From positions 1 through 21,253 of the IMG/VR virus record IMGVR_UViG_3300032293_000145: a stretch of DNA of 21,253 nt; one strand, written 5' to 3'. Within the stretch, counting starts at the first letter, position 1, and each line of letters begins with the position of its first letter. The notes beneath the pieces are model-generated. The model did no database searches. It saw nothing but the letters and a program-made list of their open reading frames with translations, and had not been told where the DNA came from. Positions 2,382 to 20,541 of the stretch are shown one piece after another. Origin of the DNA: a virus. The translations under genes and the position numbers were made by a program.

Positions 2382-3980
2382 TTAGGAGGAGCGTCTCCCC
2401 TCGCCTTGTGCATTTCTACCTGCAGTTGTTGCTGTGTTGTCAGCCTGTGCCTGTTGTCTTTGAGCATCACGCTCTCTGTTACCTGCATTGTTGGCATTAG
2501 AGTCTGCTGCTTGGCGAGCAGTTGGTTGAATCATAGAGTCACTTTCGGAACGTTCTGGAAGATTAAGAAGTTCACGAGCCTCGTTAGGAACCATAATCTG
2601 GTTCTTAACATAGTTAGTAAGAATCTGTGACTGAGCCAACTCATCGGTAAGTGTGAGTTCGTTAAACTTAAATTCTAGAACATCTGTCTTTTCACGAATA
2701 ATCTTATTAAGAATCTTTTCAAGATTGCGTTGTGCTGGTCTTGCTACCTGCTCTTTAAATGTTCTATCTTGTGCTAGTGAGTCAGCGATTGATGATGAAC
2801 TGCTACCACCAAGTTTTGAAAGTGGTACTTGGTGAGCAACAAGAATATCGTCACGGTTCTGGTCACGGTACTTTGAGAACGAACCTTCTTGAATACCATT
2901 TTCAATTGGTTCCATCTTGAACTCAACCTTATTGCTATCTGAATCTCCTGGCAATGGGATGTAAAGAGTTCTGTGTGACTGACCCTTTAGACCAGTCTGT
3001 AGGAATCGGAACAACTTGTCCTCTGCCTCTTGGGTAAGTTGTGCACCCTTAAGAGTTACGATATAGCGTGGAACAGCCTTATTGTTGAAGTAGTCAATGT
3101 TGTATTGTGATGCCAGCATGTCTCCTAGTAGAGATGGCATGGCAGCCATAACATCTGGAACACCATAGAAAGTGTTTAGTGGAGAGTATTCCTTAATGTG
3201 GATAATCTCGTTTGGTCGTGGGTCTTCGGTAATGTAGTTTACATTCTTTGCCCCAAAGTTGCGGAAGTAAACGACCTTATTTGAAATGATTTGAACATAA
3301 CCATCACGCAATCTGCGGACACGCATTGTTGATGCAGGGATGTGACCAATGTAGCCAATCTCTCCAGTTGTTGTTCTTCCAACTTCGATATAGCCATTAC
3401 CCATAGCGTGAACATCTGTGAATACTTTTTCAAGAACTGAGGAGAATGACTCGTCCTGGTTTAGACCTTCTATCCAATCTCTAAGTTGAACTTTTAGTCT
3501 TTCAATTCTATTTCTGGCACGAGACATCTGGTCTGCTGATGCAGCCTCTAGTTTAAGGTTTGTTTTGTCAGATACGATAAAGTCATAGCCAAGACCAACT
3601 GTGTTTTCAACTTTTGCATCGATAGCAGCGTGGTTAGCAAATGATGTGTCGTAGTAGTTTGCAAGTTCGTAAAGGTTGTATGGTGGGGTAATTACATCAA
3701 AGAGTGAGTATGCGTTGCGAAATACTATACCAGGGTTAATGGCATTTGAGCGAGCACCATTAGTACCCATTTGGATTGCACCAGCAGACTCTAGATAAGC
3801 ATCGTCACCCAAAGCCTTAGCCATTCTAGAACTTCTACGTTTAAAGTTAGTCTGCATACCAGCCAGACCTTTTAATTCGTCCCATGATTTTGTAAATGGG
3901 TCCATAGAAGCAAATTCGTTTACAGCCTCTTGAGCCTCATCTAGTCTTGCAGGAGTATTAGCGTATTCATAATAATTCAT
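2382..3980 (-). CDS. Phage portal protein
   Basis: This 532-residue protein would form the dodecameric ring at the capsid vertex through which DNA is packaged and to which the tail attaches. Family-like segments include AYSLFDVITPPYNLYELANYY (about residues 90-110), a clip/stem-like central part and SKYRDQNRDDILVAHQVPLSKLGG (about 365-390). These are characteristic of the HK97/SPP1-like portal family (Pfam Phage_portal). The last 45 or so residues are a Gln/Asn/Ala/Arg-rich low-complexity tail. The start ATG 3980 overlaps the stop of the preceding small gene as TAATG, and no strong Shine-Dalgarno is visible, so translation is probably coupled. Position directly before the protease is canonical. 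The length is usual for the family. Confidence 0.9.
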   Translation of the reverse strand: MNYYEYANTPARLDEAQEAVNEFASMDPFTKSWDELKGLAGMQTNFKRRSSRMAKALGDDAYLESAGAIQMGTNGARSNAINPGIVFRNAYSLFDVITPPYNLYELANYYDTSFANHAAIDAKVENTVGLGYDFIVSDKTNLKLEAASADQMSRARNRIERLKVQLRDWIEGLNQDESFSSVLEKVFTDVHAMGNGYIEVGRTTTGEIGYIGHIPASTMRVRRLRDGYVQIISNKVVYFRNFGAKNVNYITEDPRPNEIIHIKEYSPLNTFYGVPDVMAAMPSLLGDMLASQYNIDYFNNKAVPRYIVTLKGAQLTQEAEDKLFRFLQTGLKGQSHRTLYIPLPGDSDSNKVEFKMEPIENGIQEGSFSKYRDQNRDDILVAHQVPLSKLGGSSSSSIADSLAQDRTFKEQVARPAQRNLEKILNKIIREKTDVLEFKFNELTLTDELAQSQILTNYVKNQIMVPNEARELLNLPERSESDSMIQPTARQAADSNANNAGNRERDAQRQQAQADNTATTAGRNAQGEGRRSS

Positions 3981-4375
3981 TAATCGTCACGTCCGTATAG
4001 GTCTAGTGTCTTCTTAGCATCTACTAGTGCACCTAGGTCTGTTTCTGAAGGAATATATCCCTGAGCCATGCGGTCAATCTGTTCGCTGTATTCTTCGTCT
4101 GATACCTTGCGAACATTGGCAAAGAATACTGCCTGACCATCTGGCTGTCCTAGCCAAGTTGCCTCATTACGAAGCAAAGCAATCCTTGATTCATCACCCT
4201 TCATGGAGTCGATGCTTAGGGCATTTCCATCTCCATCGGTAAACATTTTACCTGAGCGTAGTTGCCAAACGTAGATTCCATAGTCTGAAAAAGGTTCCTC
4301 TACGACAGAAACTCTTGTTTTACCAATTTGGTTGGGCATGACTTGACCAATATCTTTTGTAGTATCTATATTCAT
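3980..4375 (-). CDS. Small unknown protein coupled to the portal gene
   Basis: This 131-residue acidic soluble protein (for example YGIYVWQLRSGKMFTDGDGN, GQPDGQAVFFANVRKVSDEE) has no signal peptide or membrane segment, and I do not recognise a family. I chose ATG 4375 rather than GTG 4381: a TATACT box with TGG in front (4391-4383) ends 7 nt before ATG 4375, so the GTG would lie upstream of the expected transcript start. No Shine-Dalgarno is present, which fits a leaderless message. Its stop codon overlaps the portal start (TAATG), so the two proteins are probably made together. The position suggests a head or portal accessory protein, but nothing in the sequence proves that. Confidence 0.75.
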   Translation of the reverse strand: MNIDTTKDIGQVMPNQIGKTRVSVVEEPFSDYGIYVWQLRSGKMFTDGDGNALSIDSMKGDESRIALLRNEATWLGQPDGQAVFFANVRKVSDEEYSEQIDRMAQGYIPSETDLGALVDAKKTLDLYGRDD

Positions 4376-4382
4376 AACCACT

Positions 4383-4393: not shown

Positions 4394-7300
4394 TTATGAT
4401 GCACTATATATGTTTGATTGTTTTGTTAGTCCTACCAAAACTTCTCCATGCTTACCAGTTATAGTTAAACCAGAGGTACTTTCATTATTTGATATATTTG
4501 TTTTTGAAACTCCAGCATATACATCATATATTTGTGAAAGACTAATAGGAACATTAGCCTTGTCCGCCATTTTTGTTAGTTCTTCCCAAGTAATAGAAGA
4601 ACTCCAGACTGACCAGTCATATTGAACATTTGATACATTATCAGAAATAGCAGGATTAATGACATCACGCCAAGTTCTTGCCTTTTTGCTATTTAATATT
4701 CTACTTTGTGACAATGAGTAAAATGATATATTGTCAATAGATACTGAAGGTTTTACTATTAGTTTTCCTGGATTTGAGTCGAAGTCTAATGGCTCTACAA
4801 ACACAATTCCTAAAATACCCCATTCATTTAGTGTCATAGTTGCTTCTTTTACAAGTTCTCCATTCCAGTAAAAATACATATTTTCGTTTATCATGTCTGC
4901 CAAATATTGATAGTATGAGTTTGCGTACAATCTTACTCTTTGTGAGTTTGATGCTATTGAAGAACCAGAAAGTGTTGGAGTTTTGTCTAAGGCTTCCATT
5001 ACAAAATCTATTACTCTTGTTGTTGTTTCTATTGAGAATATAACTCCAAGTGTTGGATATTCTAGATAATTTGATGTAGATGTATTCTTTGTAAATGGGA
5101 ACTGATAGTTAATAAACATCTGCATTCCACTTAAAGTATAGTTTGGACTTGCTTTTTCATTTATAGAAACATAGAATCCACGGTCTTCTGGGGAATCTGG
5201 GATGTCTCCAACTAATTTTATTCCAGATTGTGGGGTTAGATTTAAATAAGGACTAGTCTGCTTATCAATCAGAAAAGGGTTTGGCTCTGTATAGTCATAG
5301 GCTACTCCATTATGGTAGTATGGAGTTATTGTAGTTCCAGTTTTAGAACCAAGTGTATTCTTTAGAGATGTTCCAGTGTTTAGTGCTTGCGAAGCAAACT
5401 GCAAATACTTTATTTCAACTGGATTGAGTATAGATGTTGGCAAATGTATGTCTAAATGAACAACAATAGCGTATTCTGTAAAATCTATAGATGGTGGTAA
5501 GTATATAATTGTTCTATCATTTATCTCATACTTTGTTGTTGCCCAACTACCAGAAGGAGTAATTGTGTTGTTTGCATTTAATGCTACTGTTGTTGCAAAA
5601 GATGATAGGTCTAGGTTTGGACCTGTAGATGCTGTGATATCTTGAAAAGTAATGTAGTTGTTTAGTCCAGAGCCATCACTTATAGAAAATGATGTCCCAG
5701 TTCCAGACGATAAAATGTTTTTTGTATAATCGATATTATATTGCAAAAATGACAAGTTGTAAACCTGATTACCAGAGCCATCAAGCACATTTTTTGCAAG
5801 CAAAGTTAGCGGAATGTAGTCCTGCCAGTAACATGCTGCACCAATATCAAAGCCCAAGTCTTTATTAAACATCAATGAGTAACTTGATAACCTGTCGTAT
5901 TTGGATACCCAGGAGACTGCTGGCAAAGCAATGAACGTTCCATTGGCATTAATCTGGGATGTAAAGTTTGTGAGGTTACGCTTGTTGTCGAAAGATATCC
6001 TAACTATAGATTCTTCGTAAAAATATGTGTTTGTAGTATCTTCATCTCCACCAAAATAAACTATGACATCATCTTGATTAGAAAACAGGGACGTATTTAA
6101 ATTTGCATTTGGATAAGTTGTTGTAAATTTATCTATATCTATTCCAACAAAGAATACGTTACTTAGTCTAGAAATTGAGGTTGTGGCTCCTGAAATAGTT
6201 GTTTCTGTAATGCCACCGTCATTACTGTATTTGTAATAAACACTATTACTTTGTGTTGTTATTTTTAGATAGTTGTTAGTATTCTTATTTATAAATTTAA
6301 ATATAAGTTTTTCTGTCGCACTCGATGGTGCTTGCAAAATTGCATGAACACCCTTTACTGATTCATTTAAAACATTTAATGAATCGAACTTAATGTATGT
6401 TTTATCGTATGCTGCTACTGGCTTTAGTTTAAATTCGTTTGCTGTTGGTGGCAAAGCAGAGTTTGCTGTTTCTAGGGTATTTTTTGAAAACGTGGTATCT
6501 GTAAATATAAAATTAGGCAAAGAATAGGTTGGGGAAGACAAAGCATTGTTCTTTTCAATAAAGTTGCTTAGTAGACCGTTCTTCCATTTTCCAGTTTCTG
6601 GATAGTTGTAATCATTTGAATAGTTTGCCTTTGTATAGTCAATTGCTACTGTTGTAGAGTCGTACTGTGAGTTTATATCTTCTGGTATTCTTGTTCCAAT
6701 ACCGCTTACAAAATTAACTAATGCTTGGGTATTTGAAAATTGATAAGGATATATTGATACAGAGTCTATTTGGATTTGTTGATATTCTGAACCAATTCCA
6801 ATCCAGTCTGTTTCTGGCACTGCTGTGGCTAAAGTGTCTAGGTCAGTTTCATCTAGCGATAGAGATATTGCGTCTTCGCCATTAACAAATAGTTTTATAA
6901 AGTTTTTGCTGTATGTAATTTGAAGCAACATCGGTCTATTCCAATATCCAACATAGTGATACCCAATCTTATCTCCAAGTTGTAGAATTATGCTGTTATT
7001 AGAAACATACAATCCATTGCCACTTTTTTCTGATGCTAGTCCAAGTATCTTGGTTCTGCCTATACCATCCTGGTCTGGAAGTGTCCATTTCTGATAGTTT
7101 AACTTCATCCAAAATTCAAAAGTGTATTCTTTATTTTTACCCTTTTGATTTAAAAATCCAAACGCTGGAAATAACATTGAACATGGTTGATAGGTTGCTC
7201 CAGATGTTTCATATGAAAATGCTATAGCCTTATCCGAACCCATTGCCAGTGGTATGCTCGAAGCCCTAGCAAATATTTTTTTATCATCAGATAGGTAGTA

Positions 7301-7954
7301 TGCACTGTATTGATTGTTTCCATAATCTTTTGTTTCATACCCTTTTTGAGATGTAAAACCAGTTATAGATGATAGGGTTGTTAGAGATGTTGTCTGAATA
7401 CCCAAAGAATACTTGTTAAATTCTTCGGACATATGACCAACAGTTAATCCATTAATCCAAAACTCATTGTCTGTTGCTGACCCAGAATAATTTATTTTAA
7501 TATATACTTTAGCACTTGCAACGCTGGCAAAAAAAGTTTGTGAAATAAAAACCCAATCCTGATATACAGATGGGTAGTATGTAGCAACAACTGGGGTATT
7601 TGAAGCAATCTGATATCCAATATCTACACTAGTTATATTTAAACTACCCACATACAAATAAAATCCAACACAAAAAGAGGTTGTTGAGTTTGTAAAAGTA
7701 CTGACATTGGTTGCTGTTATTGAACCTGAACCAGAAGTACTTAAAAGTTTTGTGGTTGTACTAGATGGGAACGGTGCTGTTGATGGTGTTGTTAGGTTTG
7801 TTGCAGTTCCACCAGATATTGTCCAACCGCTGCTAAGACTTCTGTTGGCATTTGTAATTAATGAAATATAGTCTACAGAATCATCCAAAGACCATGTGGC
7901 TATTGGATGCTGTGCAAATATTTTTTCTGAATAGATGTTAGAAATGGATGGCAT
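4394..7954 (-). CDS. Giant LamG/concanavalin-like tail or adhesin protein
   Basis: This 1186-residue protein is rich in Ser, Thr, Asn and Tyr. Residues about 270-405 form a recognisable LamG-like jelly roll: EYTFEFWMKLNYQ, GNGLYVSNNSIILQLGD, PMLLQITYSKNFIKLFVNGE and IDSVSIYPYQFS. A second similar region lies near residues 930-1080 (ENMYFYWNGELVKEATMTLNEWGILGIVFVEP, SIDNISFYSLS). Such folds bind polysaccharides, so this is probably a host-recognition protein of the virion. The N-terminus (NIYSEKIFAQHPIATWSLDD) resembles the start of large LamG proteins in actinobacterial phages. ATG 7954 is 7 nt after a TAGAAT box with TGG in front, and there is no Shine-Dalgarno. A terminator for the upstream reductase precedes the promoter, making this a separate transcription unit. 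Its exact place in the virion is unknown. Confidence 0.75.
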   Translation of the reverse strand: MPSISNIYSEKIFAQHPIATWSLDDSVDYISLITNANRSLSSGWTISGGTATNLTTPSTAPFPSSTTTKLLSTSGSGSITATNVSTFTNSTTSFCVGFYLYVGSLNITSVDIGYQIASNTPVVATYYPSVYQDWVFISQTFFASVASAKVYIKINYSGSATDNEFWINGLTVGHMSEEFNKYSLGIQTTSLTTLSSITGFTSQKGYETKDYGNNQYSAYYLSDDKKIFARASSIPLAMGSDKAIAFSYETSGATYQPCSMLFPAFGFLNQKGKNKEYTFEFWMKLNYQKWTLPDQDGIGRTKILGLASEKSGNGLYVSNNSIILQLGDKIGYHYVGYWNRPMLLQITYSKNFIKLFVNGEDAISLSLDETDLDTLATAVPETDWIGIGSEYQQIQIDSVSIYPYQFSNTQALVNFVSGIGTRIPEDINSQYDSTTVAIDYTKANYSNDYNYPETGKWKNGLLSNFIEKNNALSSPTYSLPNFIFTDTTFSKNTLETANSALPPTANEFKLKPVAAYDKTYIKFDSLNVLNESVKGVHAILQAPSSATEKLIFKFINKNTNNYLKITTQSNSVYYKYSNDGGITETTISGATTSISRLSNVFFVGIDIDKFTTTYPNANLNTSLFSNQDDVIVYFGGDEDTTNTYFYEESIVRISFDNKRNLTNFTSQINANGTFIALPAVSWVSKYDRLSSYSLMFNKDLGFDIGAACYWQDYIPLTLLAKNVLDGSGNQVYNLSFLQYNIDYTKNILSSGTGTSFSISDGSGLNNYITFQDITASTGPNLDLSSFATTVALNANNTITPSGSWATTKYEINDRTIIYLPPSIDFTEYAIVVHLDIHLPTSILNPVEIKYLQFASQALNTGTSLKNTLGSKTGTTITPYYHNGVAYDYTEPNPFLIDKQTSPYLNLTPQSGIKLVGDIPDSPEDRGFYVSINEKASPNYTLSGMQMFINYQFPFTKNTSTSNYLEYPTLGVIFSIETTTRVIDFVMEALDKTPTLSGSSIASNSQRVRLYANSYYQYLADMINENMYFYWNGELVKEATMTLNEWGILGIVFVEPLDFDSNPGKLIVKPSVSIDNISFYSLSQSRILNSKKARTWRDVINPAISDNVSNVQYDWSVWSSSITWEELTKMADKANVPISLSQIYDVYAGVSKTNISNNESTSGLTITGKHGEVLVGLTKQSNIYSAS

Positions 7955-8016: not shown

Positions 8017-10056
8017 TTAGTTTTTATCTGGAATTTTGATTTCACAGTAATCGGTGGTGCAGTAGGCTTCGCCTTGTGCTTCCAGATTGTCTACTCCATC
8101 ATAGATAGCAGAGAAATCAATCTTTGCTAGTCTGCCAATGTAGTAGTCGTACTCATCTTCTGTAATTTCAGAATATGGCTGTTGTGGATAAACAGTGTTG
8201 CCCATTGGTAGGAATGAAACTGCCTTCAACTGTCCTTCATACATGTTTAGAACAGAAGCAATGTGCTGTTTCTCAGTTGCTGTGTCAAACGATAGCGTTA
8301 CTGAAACACCATTGTCTGACCAGTACTTCTGAGCGGTAGCAGCAAGTGCTGTCTTCTCAAATAGAGTTACATCCTTTTCTGCTCGCTTCTGTCCTGACGC
8401 AATTGGGAAGTATACTACTGAAGTATTTGCTGACACTAGGTCTGGCTCAATCTTGTACCCTGCCGCTTTGAACAAGTGTAGCATTGGGTCTGTGTTTCCA
8501 AAACGGATTGCTCTTAGATAGAACTTTCCACCTGGACCCCAGTGAACACCAGGGGTAGCACCAGAAAGAATTGAAACAGAGCCAGATGGCTTAACTGTAG
8601 TTACACGAATTGACTCACGAACACACATCCATTCTGAATACTTGTTGTCGTAATAGCGAATCTTGTTATATCCTTCGTCCATCCACTCACGAGTAGTAGG
8701 AAGACCATGCTCATCAGCGAATGATGCGATGCCAGTTAGAGATGTTCCAATTCTACGGTTTCTCTGCATGATACCGTTGGTCTGTTGCCAGTGAGTAGGT
8801 AGAAGTGTTACAGTCTTTCCATACAGATAAGCGAACTTAAGAGTACGCAGGAAGTCTTCCTTTGACTCGTGACGGTTTAGGTGTACTTCCACAAGGGTAC
8901 ATAGTTCATATGACTCTAGTGGCTGTTCTGCACACGGATTGAAGCCCATTACACGATAGTCCTTGCCATCTGCTGGGTCTGCTAGTCTACCAAAGTTACG
9001 AGCAACATCGAGCCAAATAAATCCTGGCTCACCATTGTCAACAATGCGGTCTACATACTTTTCGTAATCCATTCCGACATTTGCTTCGATAGAGTTGTTT
9101 GACATCCAAGCCCAACCTGGATTCTCTGGGTCGTATGAGTTACGCTCTGGGAATGCTTCTGCATTCTTTAGATTTAGGAAGTCCTCATCTCCATCTACGC
9201 CAAGTGCAAGAGTAGCAGAACGTCTGACGTTACCTGAAACAACACAAGTACCAATAAGGTTGATTAGGTCAACGATAGCACGAGCATCTAGGTTGTCTCC
9301 AACACGCTGTGAAAGAACGTGAGCAATACGCTCATGTAGTTTGATTAGCGGAGCAGGACCAGAGGCTACGCCACCAAATCCCTTAATTGGAGCACCTTCT
9401 GGACGAACCTCAGAGTAATCAAACTTCTGTATGTTCTGACCTGAACGAAGGAATGAGTTGATTAGAAGACGAGTTGCCTCTACCCAGCCTTCACGAGTAT
9501 CAGGAATAACATAAGTTACTTCTGGTTCTGATGGTGCGTAGATTGGAAAGTTTTTGTCTTTTCCAAGGGTATCAAAACCAACTCCAATACCAAGCATAAG
9601 AGCATCCATTACCCAAGCAAACAACTGACCTGGGTCATTCTTGTCTAGGTCTTTTGTAGATACCATAGCACAATTCTGAAGAGCCGCTGAGTTACGCTTC
9701 TCCATTGTTAGTGGTGTTCCGAATGTCCACATGCCACGACCTGGCGGTGTCCATTTTAGGTTAAACATGCGGTCAAAGGCTTCTTGTGCTGACTTCTGTG
9801 CCTTATAGTCATTCCATGGGAGACGATTCTCCTTTGCATGGTTTTTCTGTACAGAGTACATACCTTCGATAACTCTGCGTACAACTTCGTACCAGCGTTC
9901 TTTAGTTCCGTCTTCTTTGACTCGTGAGTAAGTGCGAACAAAGGTAATTTCACCTAGTGCGTTGCCCCCTGCATCCACGAATCCAAAGGGTGATTCGACT
10001 GATTTGTACTTTTCGACAAAATCATTCGGTAGGGTAAATGAGAAAAAATCTGACAT
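8017..10056 (-). CDS. nrdJ: Adenosylcobalamin-dependent ribonucleotide reductase (monomeric class II)
   Basis: This 679-residue enzyme reduces ribonucleotides to deoxyribonucleotides for phage DNA synthesis, using vitamin B12 to make the thiyl radical. All key residues of the Lactobacillus leichmannii RTPR type are visible. Cys375 lies in NPCAEQ (the thiyl radical cysteine; Asn373 and Glu377 alongside). Cys386 lies 11 residues later and Cys129 lies in LQNCAMVST, the two being the redox pair. A C-terminal CTTDYC (Cys666/Cys671) is the shuttle pair for thioredoxin-type reductants. SGNVRRSA (274-281) is also typical. At 679 residues it is shorter than the 739-residue reference, with most of the deficit between Cys129 and Cys375. 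No intein is present. The gene has its own promoter, a ribosome site AAGGTGG 7 nt before ATG, and a terminator, so it is an independent cassette among structural genes. Confidence 0.95.
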   Translation of the reverse strand: MSDFFSFTLPNDFVEKYKSVESPFGFVDAGGNALGEITFVRTYSRVKEDGTKERWYEVVRRVIEGMYSVQKNHAKENRLPWNDYKAQKSAQEAFDRMFNLKWTPPGRGMWTFGTPLTMEKRNSAALQNCAMVSTKDLDKNDPGQLFAWVMDALMLGIGVGFDTLGKDKNFPIYAPSEPEVTYVIPDTREGWVEATRLLINSFLRSGQNIQKFDYSEVRPEGAPIKGFGGVASGPAPLIKLHERIAHVLSQRVGDNLDARAIVDLINLIGTCVVSGNVRRSATLALGVDGDEDFLNLKNAEAFPERNSYDPENPGWAWMSNNSIEANVGMDYEKYVDRIVDNGEPGFIWLDVARNFGRLADPADGKDYRVMGFNPCAEQPLESYELCTLVEVHLNRHESKEDFLRTLKFAYLYGKTVTLLPTHWQQTNGIMQRNRRIGTSLTGIASFADEHGLPTTREWMDEGYNKIRYYDNKYSEWMCVRESIRVTTVKPSGSVSILSGATPGVHWGPGGKFYLRAIRFGNTDPMLHLFKAAGYKIEPDLVSANTSVVYFPIASGQKRAEKDVTLFEKTALAATAQKYWSDNGVSVTLSFDTATEKQHIASVLNMYEGQLKAVSFLPMGNTVYPQQPYSEITEDEYDYYIGRLAKIDFSAIYDGVDNLEAQGEAYCTTDYCEIKIPDKN

Positions 10057-13461: not shown

Positions 13462-13821
13462 CTATGACAGATAAGCATATCCAATGCTTGGTTCTGACAG
13501 TGTTACTTTAATTTGATTTGAGCCAATGTATTCAATATCGCCTTCTATAACATTACTATTATAATCGGTTATTATGACGTTTGGCTTAAAAGATAGGGGA
13601 TGTGCGATAGTCCATACAGAAAGATTTGCATTTTGTGTGTGAGTATAAGCAATATCTCCAACGTCTAGACTTAAATAGTCTAGGCTATTCCAGGCAGTAG
13701 TACCGTCACCAATTTTAATCTTATTGGTATCGGTTTCTAGCCCAATTTCACCAGCAAGCAGAATAGGGTTAGTAGAAGTCCAGCGACTTGCTGTTCCTCT
13801 TTTTTGCTGCATTGTTGGCAT
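13462..13821 (-). CDS. Short fibre/tropism protein with Mtd-like N-terminal domain
   Basis: This 119-residue protein opens with MQQKRGTASRWTSTNPILLAGEIGLETDTNKIKIGDGTTAWNSL, the signature of the phage-fibre/major-tropism-determinant N-terminal domain that attaches receptor-binding modules to the tail. The remaining 70 residues (THTQNANLSVWTIAHPLSFKPNVIITD...) look like a small beta domain of the kind that follows such anchors. The start is ATG 13821, with AAAAGGA 9 nt upstream. A promoter TGCTATAAT lies at 13858-13850. A five-codon frame (13840-13823) lies between promoter and start. Its neighbour at 13873-14529 has the same N-terminal domain with a different C-terminus, showing modular exchange. 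Confidence 0.78.
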   Translation of the reverse strand: MPTMQQKRGTASRWTSTNPILLAGEIGLETDTNKIKIGDGTTAWNSLDYLSLDVGDIAYTHTQNANLSVWTIAHPLSFKPNVIITDYNSNVIEGDIEYIGSNQIKVTLSEPSIGYAYLS

Positions 13822-13872: not shown

Positions 13873-14529
13873 TTATATCCAGCCACCAGTATTTGTTGCT
13901 GTAGATGGACCAAGATAATCTACTTTTATAAAACTATTACTCAAAAGATTTCTAGTTGTATCGGTATTTGAGAACTTGATTCTTGGTCTAAAATCAGACG
14001 AGCCATTTCCAGTAGTCAATGTTCCTTGTATTGTAAACATCAGTACTGGGTCAGTGCTTGATGAAGAAAAAGTAACTAGTGCACCTGTTACGTTGCTGCT
14101 ACCTGTAAATGTGCTGGTTGAATAACTTACACCAGTTCCTCTAGTTCCATATGACCAAATATATCTAATATTTGAAAATGCTGTCATTCCAGTTTGATAA
14201 AAGCCAAAATCGAAGTTTCTTGCACTTCCTGGGGTGCTTGTTGAAATAGTGCATTGAATTGTAAATTCATATATTGAATTTGCTAACAAAGGAAGTCTTG
14301 ATGGACTAGGAAAAAGGTCCTGCTCTGTAGTGTTTAGGGTCATTGTCTGCTGGGCAGTTACATAGTAAAAAGATTTATTTGTTGGAAAAAGGCTTGCCCA
14401 TAGAGTTGTTCCATCACCTATTTTTAAAACTTTATTTGTTGTATCGTAACCCAATTCACCAGCAGAAAGGGGATTTACAGCAGCAGACCATTCCGATGCT
14501 GTTCCCCTTTTCTGTTGTTGAACTGTCAT
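13873..14529 (-). CDS. Fibre protein with Mtd-like N-terminal domain and beta-sandwich C-terminus
   Basis: This 218-residue protein opens with QQQKRGTASEWSAAVNPLSAGELGYDTTNKVLKIGDGTTLWASL (about residues 4-47), paralogous to the start of the 13462-13821 protein. Residues about 55-215 are a beta-rich domain (LPLLANSIYEFTIQCTISTS, ARNFDFGFYQTGMTAFSNIRYIWSYG, NLLSNSFIKVDYLGPS) resembling the trimeric head at the end of many phage fibres. The start ATG 14529 lies just after the stop of the preceding 80-residue gene, with GGAG 4 nt before it, so translation is coupled. It is likely a receptor-binding protein. The family is clear at the N-terminus; the C-terminal fold is inferred. Confidence 0.75.
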   Translation of the reverse strand: MTVQQQKRGTASEWSAAVNPLSAGELGYDTTNKVLKIGDGTTLWASLFPTNKSFYYVTAQQTMTLNTTEQDLFPSPSRLPLLANSIYEFTIQCTISTSTPGSARNFDFGFYQTGMTAFSNIRYIWSYGTRGTGVSYSTSTFTGSSNVTGALVTFSSSSTDPVLMFTIQGTLTTGNGSSDFRPRIKFSNTDTTRNLLSNSFIKVDYLGPSTATNTGGWI

Positions 14530-14901: not shown

Positions 14902-15447
14902 ATGAATAATTCAAAAATCAAAAAATTACTCGCTGTCGGAATACTAAGTTTTATGTTGTCTGGGTATCCAACCCCTATTGCTCAGGCTGACAAGGTACCC
15001 CAACAAATAATTAAAGAAAAAGGTTTCGACTTTAGAAGCCAACTAATCAATCATGCTAAGTATTTAAAAAATACTGAAAGAATGAAACGGACTGTTCAAA
15101 AACTAATGAGACGTGTAAATAAAACTTCTTATGTCTTTTCTGGGTCTACCCCATATGGGTGGGACTGTTCTGGAATGGTTAGATGGACTTATAAGCAATT
15201 TGGACTAGATGTTCCTCATTCCGCCAACAAACAAGCACACATTGGCAAAAGAGTTTCTGTTCCAAAATTAGGAGACATCGTAGTCTTTGCTTACAATGGC
15301 TCTACAAACTTCTATCATTCTGGTATCTATATTGGCAAGGGTAAAATAGTAAACTCTAATCGTTACTATGGAACTACAGTCATTGAACCATTAACAGATT
15401 ACAAAAATAGTCAAATAAGATTTGTAAGAGTAGTTTCTACTTTATAA
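14902..15447 (+). CDS. Secreted NlpC/P60 cysteine peptidase (peptidoglycan hydrolase)
   Basis: This 181-residue protein is the only plus-strand gene. Residues 1-29 form a typical signal peptide: a basic start (NNSKIKK), a hydrophobic core (LLAVGILSFMLSG) and an AQA cleavage site at 27-29. Residues about 67-178 are an NlpC/P60 domain with the catalytic cysteine in WDCSGM (Cys89), histidine in FYHSGIYIG (His139) and a third polar residue in VNSNRY (Asn151, 12 residues later). The family cleaves peptide stems of cell-wall peptidoglycan. With a signal peptide it would act outside the membrane, as a Sec-exported endolysin or a host-wall modifier. The start is fixed by AGGAGG 5 nt before ATG. A divergent promoter at 14823-14851 and a hairpin in its leader suggest separate control from the fibre genes that surround it. 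Confidence 0.9.
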   Translation: MNNSKIKKLLAVGILSFMLSGYPTPIAQADKVPQQIIKEKGFDFRSQLINHAKYLKNTERMKRTVQKLMRRVNKTSYVFSGSTPYGWDCSGMVRWTYKQFGLDVPHSANKQAHIGKRVSVPKLGDIVVFAYNGSTNFYHSGIYIGKGKIVNSNRYYGTTVIEPLTDYKNSQIRFVRVVSTL

Positions 15448-15487: not shown

Positions 15488-15973
15488 TTAGAGTACTAAC
15501 GCTGTTGGACCCAGCACGACCGAAACATCGTCAATATAAAAAGAGGACCCAGCGTAAACAAAAATTTGCAATGTACCATTTCCTGTACATGTAATATTTT
15601 CAATTTTATAGTTTGTCCAAGGTGCTGCACTAGACTGTGATGCTGTTATCAAGTTTCCAGCAGTAGTGCCAGCATTTAAAGTAATGTTAAAACTTTGTGT
15701 ATTAAAAGTTCTAATCCAAATAGACAAAGAGTATACCTGACCGATGGTCAAGAGGCTGCTCTTAAAGTAATAAGGATTAGGGTCTCCATCGCCTGGTTCT
15801 GCAACCAAAGAAGCAGGGGCACTTCTAAAAGTTACTGTATCTCTAGTAATTATCCCAGTGTCACTATACCAATCAGTGGTGTTTACTGAAAAAGAAGGAT
15901 TAGTCACAAGGTTTGTTGCAGCAGCGACAGCAGTCTTAATACTACCAATCAATCCTGCAATAACACCAGTCAT
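15488..15973 (-). CDS. Carbohydrate-binding-module-like virion protein
   Basis: This 161-residue protein has an N-terminal hydrophobic/small-residue helix (MTGVIAGLIGSIKTAVAAATN), common at the start of phage appendage proteins. It is followed by a beta-sandwich that begins NLVTNPSFSVNTTDWYSDTG and ends GSSFYIDDVSVVLG. These two motifs are typical of CBM4/9-like carbohydrate-binding folds. It probably binds host surface glycans or displays on a fibre. The start ATG 15973 overlaps the stop of the fibre gene before it (TAATG), so the two are translated together. The N-terminal helix is not a convincing signal peptide in a virion context, though secretion cannot be excluded. Confidence 0.75.
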   Translation of the reverse strand: MTGVIAGLIGSIKTAVAAATNLVTNPSFSVNTTDWYSDTGIITRDTVTFRSAPASLVAEPGDGDPNPYYFKSSLLTIGQVYSLSIWIRTFNTQSFNITLNAGTTAGNLITASQSSAAPWTNYKIENITCTGNGTLQIFVYAGSSFYIDDVSVVLGPTALVL

Positions 15974-17271
15974 TAGGTCAACCCATTACCAGAAATCAGC
16001 CATGTAGTTGCAGTTGTCTTTACAGCAGTAGCAATACCATGAGCAGCAAGAGTTCTTGAACCTGTAGTGCCTGAACCAGCCAAATACATGGTATCGGTTG
16101 TTATAGCAATAGTCATTGTTGCACCTGCCCCTGCAATAAAAGTCAGAGTTGTTCCTACAGGAAACGCTACCGAACCGTTTGCTGGAATAGTAACAGTTCT
16201 AGTTGCTGAAGCATAAATGTGCTCACCAGCATCTCCTGCAACAATTGTGTAAGAACCTGTTGTTGTAGAGTTTTGTGGTAGACCCATATAGCCTATGCCT
16301 CTGGCAGCAGTAGTAGTTGTAGCATCCGCTATAGTTCCATTAAGAGTAAGTGTTCCGTTTAGATTTATGTTGGAAGTTGAAACGCTAGGATTACCACCTA
16401 TGTTTATGTTAGTTGTTCCACCAGTTCCTGCACCTGTTCCAATGTTTAATGTTTTTATAGTTCCGCCACCTTGAGCACCAGTAGCAAAATTATATGTTGA
16501 AGCACCAGTAGATGCAGTAAACATATTTACCGTTTGGGCAGAATATGTAGTGTTTCCAATATTTAAAGTTGTTGCTGAATTAACAAGGTTTGCTGTTGTT
16601 GCTGCGTTGCCAAGACTTAGAGACAATGCGTTTGTGTTAAATACTGACGCAGTTCCATTAGAGGATGTAACTATGGAAGGAGATGCACCATTTAAATTAA
16701 GTGCGGTTGCATTTGTCAATGTTACAGTTGGGTTTAGAATTGTTGCGGTACCACCATTAGCACCGATAGCAATAGTGGTAGATGCACCTCCACCAACAAC
16801 CAAAGCAGTTGCCGAACCAGAAACAATGTCTGCGTTATTAATCTTGTATGTTTTTCCAGTTGCAATGCTTAGGTTTTCGGAAGATGTCCAGTTATCGCCA
16901 GTGTCTGCCCACTGAAATGTTTTTGCAGTAGTTCCGTTTAGAGTAATGCCGCCGCCATCAGCCTGAGTGTCTAAAGTGTTATCGTTTCCAAGAACGATGT
17001 TCTTATCATCAATTGTTAATGTTGTTGAGTTTACAGTTGTTGTTGTGCCATTAACCGTTAGGGTTCCAGTAATTGTTACGTTACCTGCTAAAGTTGGATT
17101 TCCAGTATAAAGAGTATACAAGGCACCGTAGATACCTGTAGTTGTACTTAGTGTTCCTCCAGTAGTACCGTAATACAACTGCTTAAGAGCAGTTTGAATA
17201 TTTGCGGTATCTGCTAAATCTGGAATATATGTTGCTAGGGTAGTTGAACCTGAACCAATTTGAGTAGCCAT
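15973..17271 (-). CDS. Low-complexity tail-fibre protein
   Basis: This 432-residue protein is rich in Thr, Gly, Asn and Ala. The N-terminus (TTLATYIPDLADTANIQTALKQLYYGTTGG) is helical, followed by the widely shared phage-fibre segment GNVTITGTLTVNGTTTTVNSTTLTIDDKNIVLGN (about 62-95). Then come hexapeptide-like beta-helix units such as TALNLNGASPSIVTSSNG and NIGNTTYSAQTVNMFTAST. The C-terminal 100 residues (GYMGLPQNSTTTGSYTIVAGDAGEHIYASATRTVTIPANG...) are a small beta domain often found at fibre ends. ATG 17271 lies 7 nt after TATAAT with no Shine-Dalgarno. The promoter's TATAAT box includes the stop codon of the preceding glycosyltransferase gene. It is coupled by TAATG to the CBM gene. Confidence 0.8.
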   Translation of the reverse strand: MATQIGSGSTTLATYIPDLADTANIQTALKQLYYGTTGGTLSTTTGIYGALYTLYTGNPTLAGNVTITGTLTVNGTTTTVNSTTLTIDDKNIVLGNDNTLDTQADGGGITLNGTTAKTFQWADTGDNWTSSENLSIATGKTYKINNADIVSGSATALVVGGGASTTIAIGANGGTATILNPTVTLTNATALNLNGASPSIVTSSNGTASVFNTNALSLSLGNAATTANLVNSATTLNIGNTTYSAQTVNMFTASTGASTYNFATGAQGGGTIKTLNIGTGAGTGGTTNINIGGNPSVSTSNINLNGTLTLNGTIADATTTTAARGIGYMGLPQNSTTTGSYTIVAGDAGEHIYASATRTVTIPANGSVAFPVGTTLTFIAGAGATMTIAITTDTMYLAGSGTTGSRTLAAHGIATAVKTTATTWLISGNGLT

Positions 17272-17278
17272 AAACTAT

Positions 17279-17287
17279 ATTATACCA
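17279..17287 (-). promoter_or_regulatory. Leaderless-type promoter of the 15973-17271 fibre gene
   Basis: TGGTATAAT ends 7 nt before ATG 17271. The bases TAA inside it are also the stop codon of the glycosyltransferase gene. Confidence 0.7.
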
Positions 17288-18320
17288 CGTCTGTCTCTTT
17301 AAATAAGTCAAAATTAGAACTAGCAATTCCATTGACATTAAGAGACATCTTATCTTTTCTATTCTTAAACTTTAGATTGTGATTGCAAACATAAAGCATA
17401 TTCTTTGGTAGATAGCCCCAGGCTTGTTCAATATAGTTGTGGTCTGTTGTTCTTTGAGTAATTTCCATTACCTTTTTGCAATACTTTTTGGCATTTCTCC
17501 AATCCTTTTTATTGAAGTAATGAACTGCCAAGCAGTATAGTGGTTCACGAGCATACCAAGCCTTAAGTGCAGACTTCAGGTGTTTCTTCTGTTTTTTGTG
17601 TTGTATGTTTGCAAGAACAATATATGCTGCAGAAATATCTGTTGGAAGTATGTCTTTATCTTTCATAGATACAAACTTTTTAAACTCTTTTATGGACTGC
17701 TCTATATCTTTTGCAAGCAAAGCCTTTGCATAATATAGTTGATACCTATGGCTATCTGGATTTTCATCTAAAGTATCTTTAATTAGACTGTTATACTCAA
17801 GCCTACTTTTTTCTAAATCTGGATAGTGCAAAATATGTAGTTCTGGGCATTCCTCTAAAACATGCTTTTCATTTCTGTCTGCAACAATGTATTCGTGAAC
17901 GATGTATTTCCAACGGTATCCATGGCGAGCATGAATCTTAGCCTGAGAAGTAATGTTACCTGGAATTGTCTGGTCTTTATTATTCCAGTTCTGAGTATAC
18001 TTGTAAAGAATTTGAGTTCCAGTTGTTTTTTCTAATAGTTCTCGCCAACCCTCTTCCAATACCTCGTCAACATCTAAAGAAATACACATGTCGATATCGG
18101 CTGGTAGTGAAGCAAGAGCAGCATTACGAGCATCATCAAAACGCCAAGGTTTAATAGATATATTGATTACATTAATGCCAAGTTTCTTAGCAAGTTTAAC
18201 AGTCTTATCTGTAGAGCCAGTGTCAGCAATTAGTAGGTAGTCTGCATCTTTGGCAGATTCATACCAACGCTCTATAAACTTTTCTTCATTTAGGGCAATT
18301 GTGTATACCGCAATTTTCAT
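17280..18320 (-). CDS. Family-2 glycosyltransferase with TPR-like C-terminus (copy 2)
   Basis: This 346-residue protein transfers a sugar from a nucleotide-sugar donor. The GT-A fold is clear: MKIAVYTIALNEEKFIERW (1-19), ADTGSTD (32-38), PWRFDDARNAAL (58-69) and the metal-binding DxD motif in SLDVDE (Asp83/Asp85). From about residue 180 the protein is made of helical repeats resembling TPRs (YQLYYAKALLAKDIEQSIKEFKKF, AYIVLANIQHKKQ, LAVHYFNKKDWRNAKKYCKK). It begins at an ATGA overlap with the upstream paralogue, with AAAGGA as ribosome site and a possible extra promoter inside the end of that gene. By my count about three quarters of the first 90 residues match the paralogue, while the C-terminal half differs much more. 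Acceptor candidates are virion fibre proteins or a host glycan; neither is shown. Confidence 0.85.
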   Translation of the reverse strand: MKIAVYTIALNEEKFIERWYESAKDADYLLIADTGSTDKTVKLAKKLGINVINISIKPWRFDDARNAALASLPADIDMCISLDVDEVLEEGWRELLEKTTGTQILYKYTQNWNNKDQTIPGNITSQAKIHARHGYRWKYIVHEYIVADRNEKHVLEECPELHILHYPDLEKSRLEYNSLIKDTLDENPDSHRYQLYYAKALLAKDIEQSIKEFKKFVSMKDKDILPTDISAAYIVLANIQHKKQKKHLKSALKAWYAREPLYCLAVHYFNKKDWRNAKKYCKKVMEITQRTTDHNYIEQAWGYLPKNMLYVCNHNLKFKNRKDKMSLNVNGIASSNFDLFKETDVV

Positions 18321-19270
18321 TCGTCAATCCTTTGTTCATTATCATTATACCATTCTTCAATCTTGGCTTTTAGTTCTTCTACAGCACCCTTCCAAACTTT
18401 AGGGTTGTTGAAGATATCTGGCTTAGGTTGGGTATGTCTGATTGCCATTTCTATATACATCTTAGCCAACCCCCAGACTTCCTTTTCTACATAAAATTCT
18501 GCTAAGTAGTAGTATGGCTCTCGTCTTTCTCTAGAATGCTTTAGACATTCGGCAAGATATTTGTAGCGTTTCTCTGGAACAATGTCAGCCAAAACTTTAT
18601 AGACATGAGACTTATCTGTATCGCTAAATCCTGGAACCTTCATCATTTCTAGATACCAAGTTTCAGCCTCTTCGTATCTTTCAAGGGACACTAGAGCGTC
18701 CGTGTAATATTTATAGTATCGTGTAATGTCTCTGGTCTCATCCAATGCTGCTTTAATTAAGTCTAAATATTGACTGCGAGGTTTTTCGGTATCTGGCAAA
18801 TGATAAACTTCAAGACCATAAGCAAACTCAATGTCTGGCTCTGTCCTGTCTTGAACAATTCCTTCGTGCATAATAAACTTCCAGACATATCCGTGTCGTG
18901 AATGAATCTTATTATTGACCATGCTGTGTTGCTTGTGATAGTTGTCGAAGACGTAGGTAATCTGGTTTCCAGTTGTCTTTTCTAGAATTTCCCTCCACCC
19001 TTCGGAAATTGTCTCATCCATGTCAAGAGATACGCAGAGGTCTATGTCATCTGGTAGCAGCGATAGGGCTGTGTTCCTGGCTACGTCAAATCTCCATGGT
19101 TTGATTGAGATATTATAAACAGTTATACCAAGCGACTTGGCAATTTCAACGGTACGGTCAGTGGAACCAGTATCAGCAATAAGGATATAGTCAGCGTCCT
19201 TTACTGAGTTGTACCAGCGTTCGACAAACTTTTCTTCATTAAGTGCAATTGTATAAACTGCGATTTTCAT
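18317..19270 (-). CDS. Family-2 glycosyltransferase with TPR-like C-terminus (copy 1)
   Basis: This is a 317-residue paralogue of the next gene, with the same landmarks: MKIAVYTIALNEEKFVERW, ADTGSTD (32-38), PWRFDVARNTAL and the DxD in SLDMDE (Asp83/Asp85). The helical-repeat half (YYKYYTDALVSLERYEEAETWYLEMM, YYYLAEFYVEKEVWGLAKMYIEMA) is shorter. I chose ATG 19270 rather than the in-frame GTG 19276 because AAAGGG ends 5 nt before ATG and the paralogue begins with exactly MKIAVYTIALNEEKF. A TGCTATAAT promoter sits at 19301-19293, just after the stop of the collagen-like gene. It acts in the host cytoplasm as a soluble enzyme; no membrane segment is visible. Confidence 0.85.
   Translation of the reverse strand: MKIAVYTIALNEEKFVERWYNSVKDADYILIADTGSTDRTVEIAKSLGITVYNISIKPWRFDVARNTALSLLPDDIDLCVSLDMDETISEGWREILEKTTGNQITYVFDNYHKQHSMVNNKIHSRHGYVWKFIMHEGIVQDRTEPDIEFAYGLEVYHLPDTEKPRSQYLDLIKAALDETRDITRYYKYYTDALVSLERYEEAETWYLEMMKVPGFSDTDKSHVYKVLADIVPEKRYKYLAECLKHSRERREPYYYLAEFYVEKEVWGLAKMYIEMAIRHTQPKPDIFNNPKVWKGAVEELKAKIEEWYNDNEQRIDE
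18344..18352 (-). promoter_or_regulatory. Possible internal promoter for glycosyltransferase copy 2
   Basis: TGGTATAAT lies inside the last codons of glycosyltransferase copy 1. It would give a leader of about 17 nt with AAAGGA before ATG 18320. The coding constraint means it could be chance. Confidence 0.45.
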
Positions 19271-19292
19271 TCTCACCCTTTGTTAGATATCT

Positions 19293-19301
19293 ATTATAGC
19301 A
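19293..19301 (-). promoter_or_regulatory. Promoter of the glycosyltransferase pair
   Basis: TGCTATAAT immediately downstream of the collagen-like gene, with a short leader of about 16 nt containing AAAGGG 5 nt before ATG 19270. Confidence 0.7.
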
Positions 19302-19850
19302 TTAAGGAATTAGATAGGTTCCAGATATATAGAAGTAGTCTGCAGTATGAAGTGTAAGTGGGGTGTTATGGTCAAATGCAACATCTTTGGCACTTGAGCC
19401 TGGATGCCACAACGTCATTGTTGTTGTTCCATCTTCTGCATCTGCTGCAATTGCGTGATGATTTCCAGTAGATGCATCATGGAATCCTCCATCTCTAAAA
19501 ACATAATCATCGACTGGGGCAAATGGTAGAGTCAAGGAGTATTGACCAGTTCCAAAATTTGTAACATTCGTACAAACAACCTTTATTTTAAAATGAACAA
19601 GTTTTCCGATTTGAATATATGTTCCAGTTGCTGGAGTTCCTGTATAGGCTAATCCAGTTCCGCTCCAAACTGGGTTGAATGATTGTGATGTAGGACTTAA
19701 GGCTGGTCCAGCAGGTCCAGTAGCCCCAGTTGGTCCAGTTGGTCCAGTCGCTCCTGTACTTCCAGCACTTCCAGAGGGACAGACAATGCCATCAATCTTC
19801 ACAACTGCAGGGGTAATAGTTTTAGGAACAATCTTAACAATATTAGCCAT
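19302..19850 (-). CDS. Collagen-like fibre protein with C-terminal head
   Basis: This 182-residue protein has a short helical start (MANIVKIVPKTITPAVVKIDGIV). Seven or so Gly-X-Y triplets follow at about residues 28-50 (GSTGATGPTGPTGATGPAGP), then a beta-rich C-terminal domain (about 58-182: FNPVWSGTGLAYTGTPATGTYIQIGKLVHFKIKVVCTNVT...). The collagen segment would trimerise the protein and the C-terminal domain would act as a receptor-binding head. The start overlaps the previous gene's stop (TAATG) with GGGGGAG upstream. The next genes are the two glycosyltransferases, so this protein is a plausible glycosylation substrate, but only by neighbourhood. Confidence 0.8.
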   Translation of the reverse strand: MANIVKIVPKTITPAVVKIDGIVCPSGSAGSTGATGPTGPTGATGPAGPALSPTSQSFNPVWSGTGLAYTGTPATGTYIQIGKLVHFKIKVVCTNVTNFGTGQYSLTLPFAPVDDYVFRDGGFHDASTGNHHAIAADAEDGTTTMTLWHPGSSAKDVAFDHNTPLTLHTADYFYISGTYLIP

Positions 19851-20146
19851 TAGATAACTCCCCCATCTACTTTTTCTAGAATAAGAGTATTTGTGTTAAC
19901 GTCATATGCTAGACCTCCACCAACTGTAAGGTTTCCCAAAGCACCTGCTGGTCCTTGGATACCCTGGATTCCTTGGATACCCTGGATTCCTTGAGGTCCT
20001 TGGCTGCCTGTGTCTCCTTTGGCTCCAGGCATAGGAAGAAGTTTAATTGTAGGAGTTTGACCTTGATTAATAATCTTAATAATTACGTCATTAGTGTTAT
20101 CTGGAACGACTTGTCCTAGGATTGCTGGCGAGTAGTAAGTAGGCAT
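19850..20146 (-). CDS. Short collagen-like fibre protein
   Basis: This 98-residue protein has an N-terminal region of about 40 residues (YYSPAILGQVVPDNTNDVIIKIINQGQTPTIKLLP). Gly-X-Y triplets follow at about 43-70 (GAKGDTGSQGPQ then four GIQ units and GPAG), and then a short tail (LTVGGGLAYDVNTNTLILEKVDGG) typical of fibre bases. The protein lacks a large head domain, so it may be a shaft or adaptor for the collagen-like protein encoded next. Translation is coupled on both sides through TAATG overlaps. The GIQ units are encoded by an exact 18-bp tandem repeat. Confidence 0.78.
   Translation of the reverse strand: MPTYYSPAILGQVVPDNTNDVIIKIINQGQTPTIKLLPMPGAKGDTGSQGPQGIQGIQGIQGIQGPAGALGNLTVGGGLAYDVNTNTLILEKVDGGVI
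19957..19992. repeat. Exact 18-bp tandem repeat coding for GIQ collagen triplets
   Basis: Two perfect copies (19957-19974 and 19975-19992) of a unit starting GGATACCCTGG. Each encodes two Gly-Ile-Gln triplets. Slippage would lengthen or shorten the collagen stem by six residues in frame. Confidence 0.85.
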
Positions 20147-20526
20147 TATGCGTTAATGCTCACATCAGCAAGAACGGTAATTTTACCGATTACTGGTGTC
20201 CAGATTTCGGAGTTGATAGTCACTTGCAAATCAAATGATAGTTCTGTAACTACAGATGATTGACCAGTACCCCATGTCTTTGTTAAACTTGCAGGGGCAG
20301 TAATATCAACATATCCAGTGCCAGCAGTAACTGTCAATGCATCAAAGCCACCATTCTTCAGGTCATAGGCACTTGATAAAAATGTCCAACCTGTGATATC
20401 ATAAAGTGTCTCTCCATCGGTTTCATAAAACTCGATACGGATTCGGGCGGTATCACCACGAACAACTTTCCATTGAACAAACGCAGGGTCTGCTCCAAAG
20501 TTATCGGGGATTGCACAATTAGTCAT
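20146..20526 (-). CDS. Ig-like/BppU-type baseplate or fibre-anchor protein
   Basis: This 126-residue protein contains VVRGDTARIRIEFYETDGETLYDITGWTFLSSAYDLKNGG and ends LQVTINSEIWTPVIGKITVLADVSINA. The pattern resembles the N-terminal Ig-like domain of baseplate upper proteins (BppU_N) and similar domains that anchor fibres. I chose ATG 20526 over GTG 20541. A TATAAT box (20538-20533) lies between the two and ends 6 nt before ATG, so the GTG is upstream of the expected transcript start. No Shine-Dalgarno is visible. It begins a three-gene coupled unit with the two collagen-like genes, consistent with an anchor plus shaft plus head. The family match is moderate. Confidence 0.7.
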   Translation of the reverse strand: MTNCAIPDNFGADPAFVQWKVVRGDTARIRIEFYETDGETLYDITGWTFLSSAYDLKNGGFDALTVTAGTGYVDITAPASLTKTWGTGQSSVVTELSFDLQVTINSEIWTPVIGKITVLADVSINA

Positions 20527-20532
20527 AAGATT

Positions 20533-20541
20533 ATTATACAC
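20533..20541 (-). promoter_or_regulatory. Leaderless-type promoter of the Ig-like/collagen unit
   Basis: GTGTATAAT ends 6 nt before ATG 20526. There is no Shine-Dalgarno. The upstream hairpin at 20551-20600 separates it from whatever is transcribed before it. Confidence 0.65.

Follow-up and report, generated by a model that had tools for sequence, protein, structure and literature searches.

Tandem glycosyltransferases between collagen-like and fiber genes of a tailed phage: candidate enzymes for O-glycosylation of its own virion

What does a tailed phage glycosylate with two paralogous enzymes encoded in tandem among its fiber genes? The question is raised by a 21,253-base piece of a tailed phage from a virus record, IMGVR_UViG_3300032293_000145 (the whole stretch is called the window here), which encodes two glycosyltransferases (GTs), labeled GT_A and GT_B throughout. 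A preliminary description of this DNA had placed tandem paralogous GTs between collagen-like and fiber genes; both open reading frames (ORFs) are indeed present there, and the end that it quoted, 19301, is intergenic, since GT_A ends at 19276. We consider it probable that GT_A and GT_B, whose activity is predicted, are phage O-glycosyltransferases of the type of SgtA from C. difficile, acting on collagen-like or Thr-rich fibers of the phage's own virion. The basis of this reading is observed: the fold, a complete set of catalytic motifs, the position and synteny in a virion module, and the covariation of the GT family, in bacteria as well as in phages, with collagens that carry Thr at position Y of their Gly-X-Y triplets (Thr-Y). 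The genes on which the argument turns are listed below; the minus strand encodes all genes named here except the lysin-like NlpC/P60 gene at 14902-15447.

18317-19276, minus strand: GT_A, GT2-type glycosyltransferase of 319 amino acids (aa) with a GTG start; GT-A domain at about residues 1 to 162 and C-terminal helices resembling tetratricopeptide repeats (TPRs); phrog_13126, E = 1.8e-66
17280-18320, minus strand: GT_B, paralogue of GT_A, 346 aa, ATG start; same architecture, 4-nucleotide (nt) overlap with GT_A; phrog_13126, E = 6.9e-78
19302-19850, minus strand: collagen-like protein of 182 aa; PF01391 at E = 7e-4, below the cutoff; predicted acceptor
19850-20146, minus strand: collagen-like protein of 98 aa with GIQ-type triplets; PF01391 at E = 3e-4, below the cutoff
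15973-17271, minus strand: Thr-rich fiber or structural protein of 432 aa, 22.5% Thr; phrog_30158 and phrog_6002; second candidate acceptor

Residues 27 to 50 of the 182-aa protein read GSA GST GAT GPT GPT GAT GPA GPA, five of the eight triplets ending in Thr. The 98-aa protein, in which one of 11 triplets ends in Thr, is an unlikely acceptor.

Fold, catalytic motifs and divergence of the pair

Both proteins score above the Pfam cutoff for Glycos_transf_2 (30.8 and 38.5 bits against 23.3), and TPR profile matches, noted for GT_B, stay below the cutoff. The AlphaFold2 models (mean predicted local distance difference test [pLDDT] of 94.7 and 93.2) begin with a GT-A domain some 160 residues long and continue in helix pairs arranged as helical repeats, and no membrane segment was found in either protein. 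SunS and ThuS head the Foldseek results for both models (E = 2.6e-17 and 3.4e-16), the next unrelated group following at 8e-7 and 1.2e-8. VIA-align likewise ranks ThuS (Z = 19.9; 262 residues; root mean square deviation [rmsd] of 6.1) and SunS (Z = 19.3; 247 residues; rmsd of 3.8) ahead of WrtF (Z = 17.7). The glycosyltransferases TarS and TarP stand further down the fold list and align mainly on the GT-A domain, whereas SunS and ThuS align on both domains. In sequence searches, a profile of the family finds the GT domain of GmaR as its best PDB match (E = 7e-11) and SunS at E = 1.7e-5, together with many TPR proteins, including the TPR part of O-GlcNAc transferase. D35 (in D35TGS), D85xD87E, H137-E138, and H159 do not vary in any of the 52 family rows; by the general pattern of the GT-A fold, these residues would serve in metal binding or as the base. 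Both window proteins are members of PHROG 13126, filed under moron/AMG, and align to its profile over residues 1 to 318 (profile positions 1 to 324 of 394) and 3 to 295 (positions 1 to 307 of 394). The label of this group, beta-1,4-glycosyltransferase, implies glycan chemistry, whereas the modeled fold and the gene context of the window pair argue for a protein rather than a glycan as acceptor.

How much does the divergence of the two copies tell about their function? GT_A and GT_B share 52% identity over 298 aa (BLASTP, E = 4e-91), with 76.9% over residues 3 to 94 (92 columns), 46.3% over residues 95 to 162, and 32.0% from residue 163 to the end. An identity of about three quarters over the first 90 residues had been counted before, correctly, and had been taken to fit a shared sugar donor and different acceptors. 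The gradient by itself does not show this: the mean over all pairs of the 52-member family is 74.7%, 41.4%, and 32.5% for the same three parts, so the steep gradient is a family-wide trait and provides no special evidence for the donors or acceptors of the window pair. Gene conversion between the N-terminal halves of the paralogues was also considered and rejected, because partners within the same phage (identity of 0.775) are not more similar there than partners from different phages (0.784). A tree of 66 rows groups the A type in one clade (100/100) and puts the A and B types together on one side of a branch (100/100); the duplication predates the close relatives of the window. Phages of the window clade carry one to three such GT genes in tandem. 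In one of them (L008:6927-7981), the middle gene of three is split into two frames and is likely a broken or misassembled copy.

Covariation of the GT family with collagens rich in Thr at Y

Does this GT family travel with collagens? Phyletic co-occurrence with collagen-like genes had been proposed as a check in the preliminary description, and an association is seen in phages and in bacteria. PF01391 exceeds its cutoff in 18 of 25 GT-positive viral records and in 4 of 29 GT-negative records of a related sample; among records of at least 20 kb, the counts are 14 of 17 and 4 of 14 (Fisher's test, p = 0.004). In a group of jumbo phages, all 6 GT-positive records examined contain a collagen, against 4 of 13 GT-negative control phages. 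Within the window clade, collagens of at least 74 triplets occur in 5 of 5 lineages with a generic GT type and in 1 of 17 lineages without it, where lineages were grouped by hand and the contigs L010 and L011 were left out (no long upstream collagen).

The bacterial relatives of the family were surveyed through the best 80 of 168: a collagen-like gene is found in the flanks of 22 of these 80 loci, within two genes of the GT at 19, and adjacent to it at 13, the linked loci belonging to Bacilli, Clostridia, Planctomycetes, and others. A set of 196 genomes drawn evenly, assigned to Clostridia from its center, the Clostridium sp. genome G054, yielded 23 genomes with the GT (E = 1e-25) and 61 with a collagen (E = 1e-6). 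Collagens are present in 19 of the 23 GT-positive and 42 of the 173 GT-negative genomes (p = 8e-8), and in 10 of the 23 no more than 2 kb separate a collagen from the GT (binomial p = 6e-8 at a 5% chance each). G054 is GT positive by choice; without it, 18 of 22 have a collagen, and 10 of 22 have one within 2 kb. A weak motif-based test for a GmaR-like context recognized no flagellin beside the homologues in the best 80 of 168 loci. As a separate observation, L166, L171, L182, and other Mesorhizobium loci show a collagen-free rhizobial context in which the GT homologue follows a protein of about 1,260 aa with a weak GT score.

The collagens found with the family have a distinctive composition. 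Thr occupies Y in 50% of triplets in the window clade, 65% in distant GT-positive phages, and 68% in bacterial GT-linked collagens. Thr enrichment at Y of bacterial collagens is itself on record, a reported figure being 48.3% in Gram-positives (PMC8968730). In the Clostridia draw, one region per genome was scored, covering 18 of the 19 GT-positive genomes with a collagen (all but G088) and 20 of the 42 GT-negative ones, mostly those listed first. The mean Thr-Y share is 0.66 in the 18 GT-positive regions and 0.21 in the 20 GT-negative regions (rank test, p = 2.6e-4), and it reaches at least 0.4 in 15 of 18 versus 3 of 20. For G139, the region scored is not the one adjacent to the GT, whose Thr-Y share is 0.89.

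For phages, loci were also collected without regard to the GT, by collagen DNA motifs among the matches listed; 17 of 179 lacked a collagen ORF and were dropped, leaving 162. The GT is present in 12 of the 103 listed loci with a Thr-Y share of at least 0.4 and in none of the 59 below it (p = 0.004; rank test, p = 0.0017). Weaker GT2 matches (55 to 79 bits) occur in seven of the listed loci, three of which have a Thr-Y share near 0; none was counted as GT positive. GT-negative phage collagens average 0.19 (8 records under a laxer rule; under a proline filter, 3 of the 8 yielded no triplets), and 19 of 25 records of the window clade carry a collagen with a Thr-Y share of at least 0.4. GC-stratified shuffles led us to reject GC content as an explanation for the association; they gave 0 of 20,000 for Clostridia and p = 0.003 for phages, the latter among the matches listed, with a slightly different ORF rule and 163 loci.

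Gene neighborhood, alternatives and a proposed mechanism

Where does the pair sit, and what surrounds it in relatives? Transcription runs from a bppU-like gene through the 98-aa and 182-aa collagen-like genes to GT_A, GT_B, and the Thr-rich fiber gene. Three further features frame the module:

20146-20541, minus strand: 131-aa protein, phrog_1084, which we take to be the bppU-like baseplate protein; marks the upstream edge of the fiber module in relatives
15488-15973, minus strand: 161-aa protein, next in the fiber module; weak CBM_4_9 match
17264-19301, minus strand: island with 87% nt identity to IMGVR_UViG_3300042691_002312; spans exactly the GT pair, with different flanking genes on both sides

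Among 38 contigs of the window clade (near-copies included), the upstream side is unreadable in 4 (L006, L024, L028, and L096); in 32 of the 34 readable contigs, the bppU-like gene is separated from the first GT by a collagen-like gene or by one homologous to the window collagen genes. Downstream, most clade contigs have a Thr-rich or other fiber gene; in L022 to L024 the lysin gene directly follows the GT_B orthologue, and the downstream fiber is therefore dispensable. In L041 and L042, which lie outside this clade, a collagen gene above the Pfam cutoff ends at the GT start. The portal protein of the window is nearest to those of Streptomyces phages, which supply 127 of the 247 matching records (identity of at most 45%), and among phage records GT_A scores best against that of the lake phage Actinomycetia phage DSL-LC01 (41% over 84%); an aquatic actinobacterium is therefore the likely host, as far as these matches tell. 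The gene order in DSL-LC01 is collagen, collagen, hypothetical, tryptophan halogenase, GT. Such a halogenase, which separates collagen-like genes from the GT, is present in two phages (L034:4173-5726, PF04820 at E = 1e-107; L059:10436-12007, which is DSL-LC01, by annotation) and may be a second enzyme modifying virion proteins.

The closest comparison is with IMGVR_UViG_3300042691_002312, which matches the window at 93% nt identity in the portal region, 94% at the ribonucleotide reductase, and 87% over 17264-19301, and in which the upstream collagens and the downstream fiber align in short stretches only. The replacement collagen there is 1,010 aa long and has Thr at 47% of its Y positions. 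The GT pair is thus a stable core between exchanged fiber genes, which argues for recognition of a shared motif over a tight fit to one acceptor.

Several observations weigh against collagens as the acceptors. That the pair outlasts the exchange of both neighbors also argues that it is not tied to one acceptor protein. With the cut at 0.5, the GT-blind contrast among the listed phage loci is not significant (9 of 84 versus 3 of 78; p = 0.13), and 91 of the 103 listed loci with a Thr-rich collagen have no such GT within the flanks examined. The collagens of GT-positive jumbo phages are not Thr rich (Thr-Y share of only 0.14 to 0.25), and 6 of 25 clade records have no collagen with a share of at least 0.4 in the available DNA. 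The two exceptions in the clade, L010 and L011, have three GTs and, upstream of them, a 95-aa gene that is not a collagen. Among distant phages, a Gly-X-Y run of at least 5 lies within four genes upstream of the GT in only 9 of 24 records, L041, L042, and DSL-LC01 among them; L074 and L075 have a collagen and no GT. When the distance between GT and collagen was compared with random placement in phage records chosen by their GT, the GT was not significantly closer than chance (combined p = 0.21 for 15 records and 0.06 for those 11 that are 20 kb or longer). Enzymes in relatives that lack collagen or fiber neighbors had been named in the preliminary description as evidence that would refute the module, and such relatives exist in part: in L031, L032, L035, and L038 the neighbors of the GT are neither collagen nor fiber genes, and the same separation is seen in the jumbo phages, while L035, L038, and all 6 of the jumbo-group records examined carry a collagen elsewhere on the record. 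In L031 (1571-3395), the GT comes immediately after genes for a NAD-dependent epimerase (PF01370) and a GT25-type glycosyltransferase (PF01755), suggesting a small glycan-assembly cluster.

Could the pair then act on something else? It is conceivable, and we hold it to be rather doubtful, that other virion proteins are modified (the capsid, the tail tube, or the large structural protein encoded at 4394-7954) and that the collagen neighborhood is incidental. The jumbo phages, whose GT belongs to the same PHROG, fit this explanation, with the GT away from collagen in a head-morphogenesis cluster, by DNA ligase, prohead protease, and structural genes; so does L039, in which the GT adjoins homologues of the window genes 4394-7954 and 3980-4381 and of the portal gene, and so does the retention of the pair through the exchange of both neighbors. 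Glycans on the capsid and tail tube of mycobacteriophages, as cited in PMC12619734, supply a precedent. The covariation with Thr-Y collagens in phages and bacteria would be unexpected under this explanation, and no mycobacteriophage is among the names listed for the 69 phage records that match GT_A, the sole query (tblastn, E = 1e-5).

Phage glycosyltransferases are often read as enzymes that protect DNA or alter the host surface, as reported for phages of Nanopelagicales, for which DNA protection or a cell wall change was proposed (PMC10202952), and for pelagimyophages, whose enzymes were read as host-surface enzymes (PMC7029224). Applied to the window, modification of the host surface would mean that envelope glycans or teichoic acids are glycosylated and superinfection is blocked, and the teichoic acid enzymes TarS and TarP do appear in the fold list; their alignment is largely confined to the GT-A domain, and the absence of a membrane segment, the late position in the virion module, and the association with collagens make this unlikely. 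The preliminary description, which had offered host-surface modification as the alternative to a virion-glycosylation module, was right in its preference: the module is real, and a soluble GT-A plus TPR build, a SunS/ThuS-like fold, and the collagen association make the virion the likelier target, on grounds that differ from those it had offered. That the phage DNA is glucosylated to withstand host nucleases, as has been proposed for glycosyltransferases of freshwater actinophages (PMC10202952), is very improbable here, as no base-hypermodification gene was recognized among the 11 window genes scanned in this genome fragment, and a TPR acceptor domain and the position in the fiber module point to protein. 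More improbable still is S-glycosylation of a small secreted peptide of the glycocin type. SunS and ThuS are the best solved fold matches, and SunS is a prophage gene; against this, neither window GT matches TIGR04195, the SunS family of NCBIfam (cutoff of 350 bits), at E = 0.01, a relative in L041 reaches 25.5 bits, and no gene for a Cys-rich peptide stood out next to the GTs among ORFs of at least 70 aa.

We therefore return to glycosylation of the phage's own collagen-like and Thr-rich fibers, for which the chemistry, the sugar, the acceptor residues, the presence of glycan in the virion, and the biological effect are predicted as follows. GT_A and GT_B would be cytoplasmic, metal-dependent GT-A enzymes of the type that joins a GT2 domain to a TPR acceptor-binding domain. 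While late genes are expressed and before fibers are assembled, the TPR half would hold nascent fiber chains for the GT-A half to transfer a sugar to Thr (perhaps Ser) of Gly-X-Thr triplets or of comparable stretches rich in Thr. The first acceptors would be collagen-like proteins such as that encoded at 19302-19850, and possibly the Thr-rich fiber at 15973-17271. The donor would most likely be UDP-GlcNAc, which is available in every host, so that no sugar-making genes would be needed. As the TPR half would pick the acceptor, the one to three paralogues per phage could divide acceptors or sites among them, and the modified fibers, once assembled, might gain stability, be masked, or have their receptor binding tuned.

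A broader and more speculative extension, which we put forward tentatively, is that this GT-A plus TPR family, widespread in phages and bacteria, serves prokaryotic collagens as their dedicated O-glycosylation machinery; modified Thr at Y would substitute for the hydroxyproline of animal collagens. The paralogous sets of phages (one to three copies, with the generic type tracking long collagens) would then build glycosylated collagen tail fibers that stabilize the virion and its receptor-binding module or keep them disguised. Should the family indeed modify collagen-like tail fibers, the receptor-binding structures of freshwater phages carry a posttranslational layer, the Thr enrichment at Y in bacterial collagens has a reason, and short cassettes of a collagen and its enzyme could be used to make glycosylated recombinant collagens.

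Other features of the window deserve mention in their own right. The NlpC/P60 hydrolase gene has a hydrophobic N terminus and lies on the plus strand amid minus-strand structural genes, an arrangement conserved clade-wide. An adenosylcobalamin-dependent ribonucleotide reductase gene (8017-10056; TIGR02505, 336.8 bits against a cutoff of 340) sits within the structural module and is about 84 to 98% identical to those of clade relatives with exchanged fiber genes. The 218-aa protein at 13873-14529 has an Mtd_N domain (the N-terminal domain of the major tropism determinant), and a related 119-aa protein is encoded at 13462-13821; in L078 and similar relatives, an N terminus homologous to the Mtd_N protein bears long collagen stretches.

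Comparison with known enzymes

How does the pair compare with glycosyltransferases of known function? SunS and ThuS are peptide S-glycosyltransferases, and SunS is encoded by the SPbeta prophage. They share the two-domain fold with the window pair along most of its length and differ from it in sequence (15 to 19% identity), in family membership, the window pair lying outside the NCBIfam SunS family at E = 0.01, and in context, no glycocin peptide having been recognized in the window. Virion glycosylation by a phage enzyme also has a parallel: a phage-encoded glycosyltransferase is said, in work by Freeman in 2023, to modify a mycobacteriophage's own virion, which resembles the reading preferred here and differs from it in its targets, the capsid and tail tube. 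GmaR of Listeria is reported to put GlcNAc on flagellin and to act as an antirepressor as well, its TPR being proposed as the substrate binder (PMC9638930). It likewise has a GT2 domain followed by a TPR domain and a protein acceptor; as described there, it extends over 637 residues with linker and antirepressor domains, whereas the window proteins end at 319 and 346 residues, without these.

What is new here is the covariation of the GT family with collagens and with Thr at Y, and SgtA as a bacterial counterpart of the pair; in the literature searched, in which subscription journals are thinly covered, no paper linking phage glycosyltransferases with phage collagens was recognized. The likeness to SgtA was drawn from its published description. 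The Clostridia draw includes seven bacterial GTs that are built like SgtA and homologous to the window pair from end to end; six have a collagen no more than 2 kb away. A profile made from the seven matches GT_B at E = 2.5e-25 and GT_A at E = 5.6e-19. SgtA is described as a protein of 358 aa with a GT-A and a TPR domain, encoded immediately upstream of bclA3, and the purified enzyme is reported to transfer beta-O-linked GlcNAc from UDP-GlcNAc onto Thr (and Ser) of GPT collagen-region peptides in vitro, with a preference for Mn2+ over Mg2+ (PMC7157674). By that account, the window pair is similar in length (319 and 346 aa), in its order of a GT-A domain followed by modeled TPR helices, and in its collagen-like neighbor with GPT and GAT triplets, the gene at 19302-19850 lying directly upstream of GT_A; the metal-binding DxD motif of the pair stands beside the Mn2+ preference of SgtA. 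The two systems differ in setting: SgtA acts on BclA3, a collagen of the spore exosporium, whereas the window pair belongs to a phage, where one to three tandem paralogues would act on the fibers of the virion.

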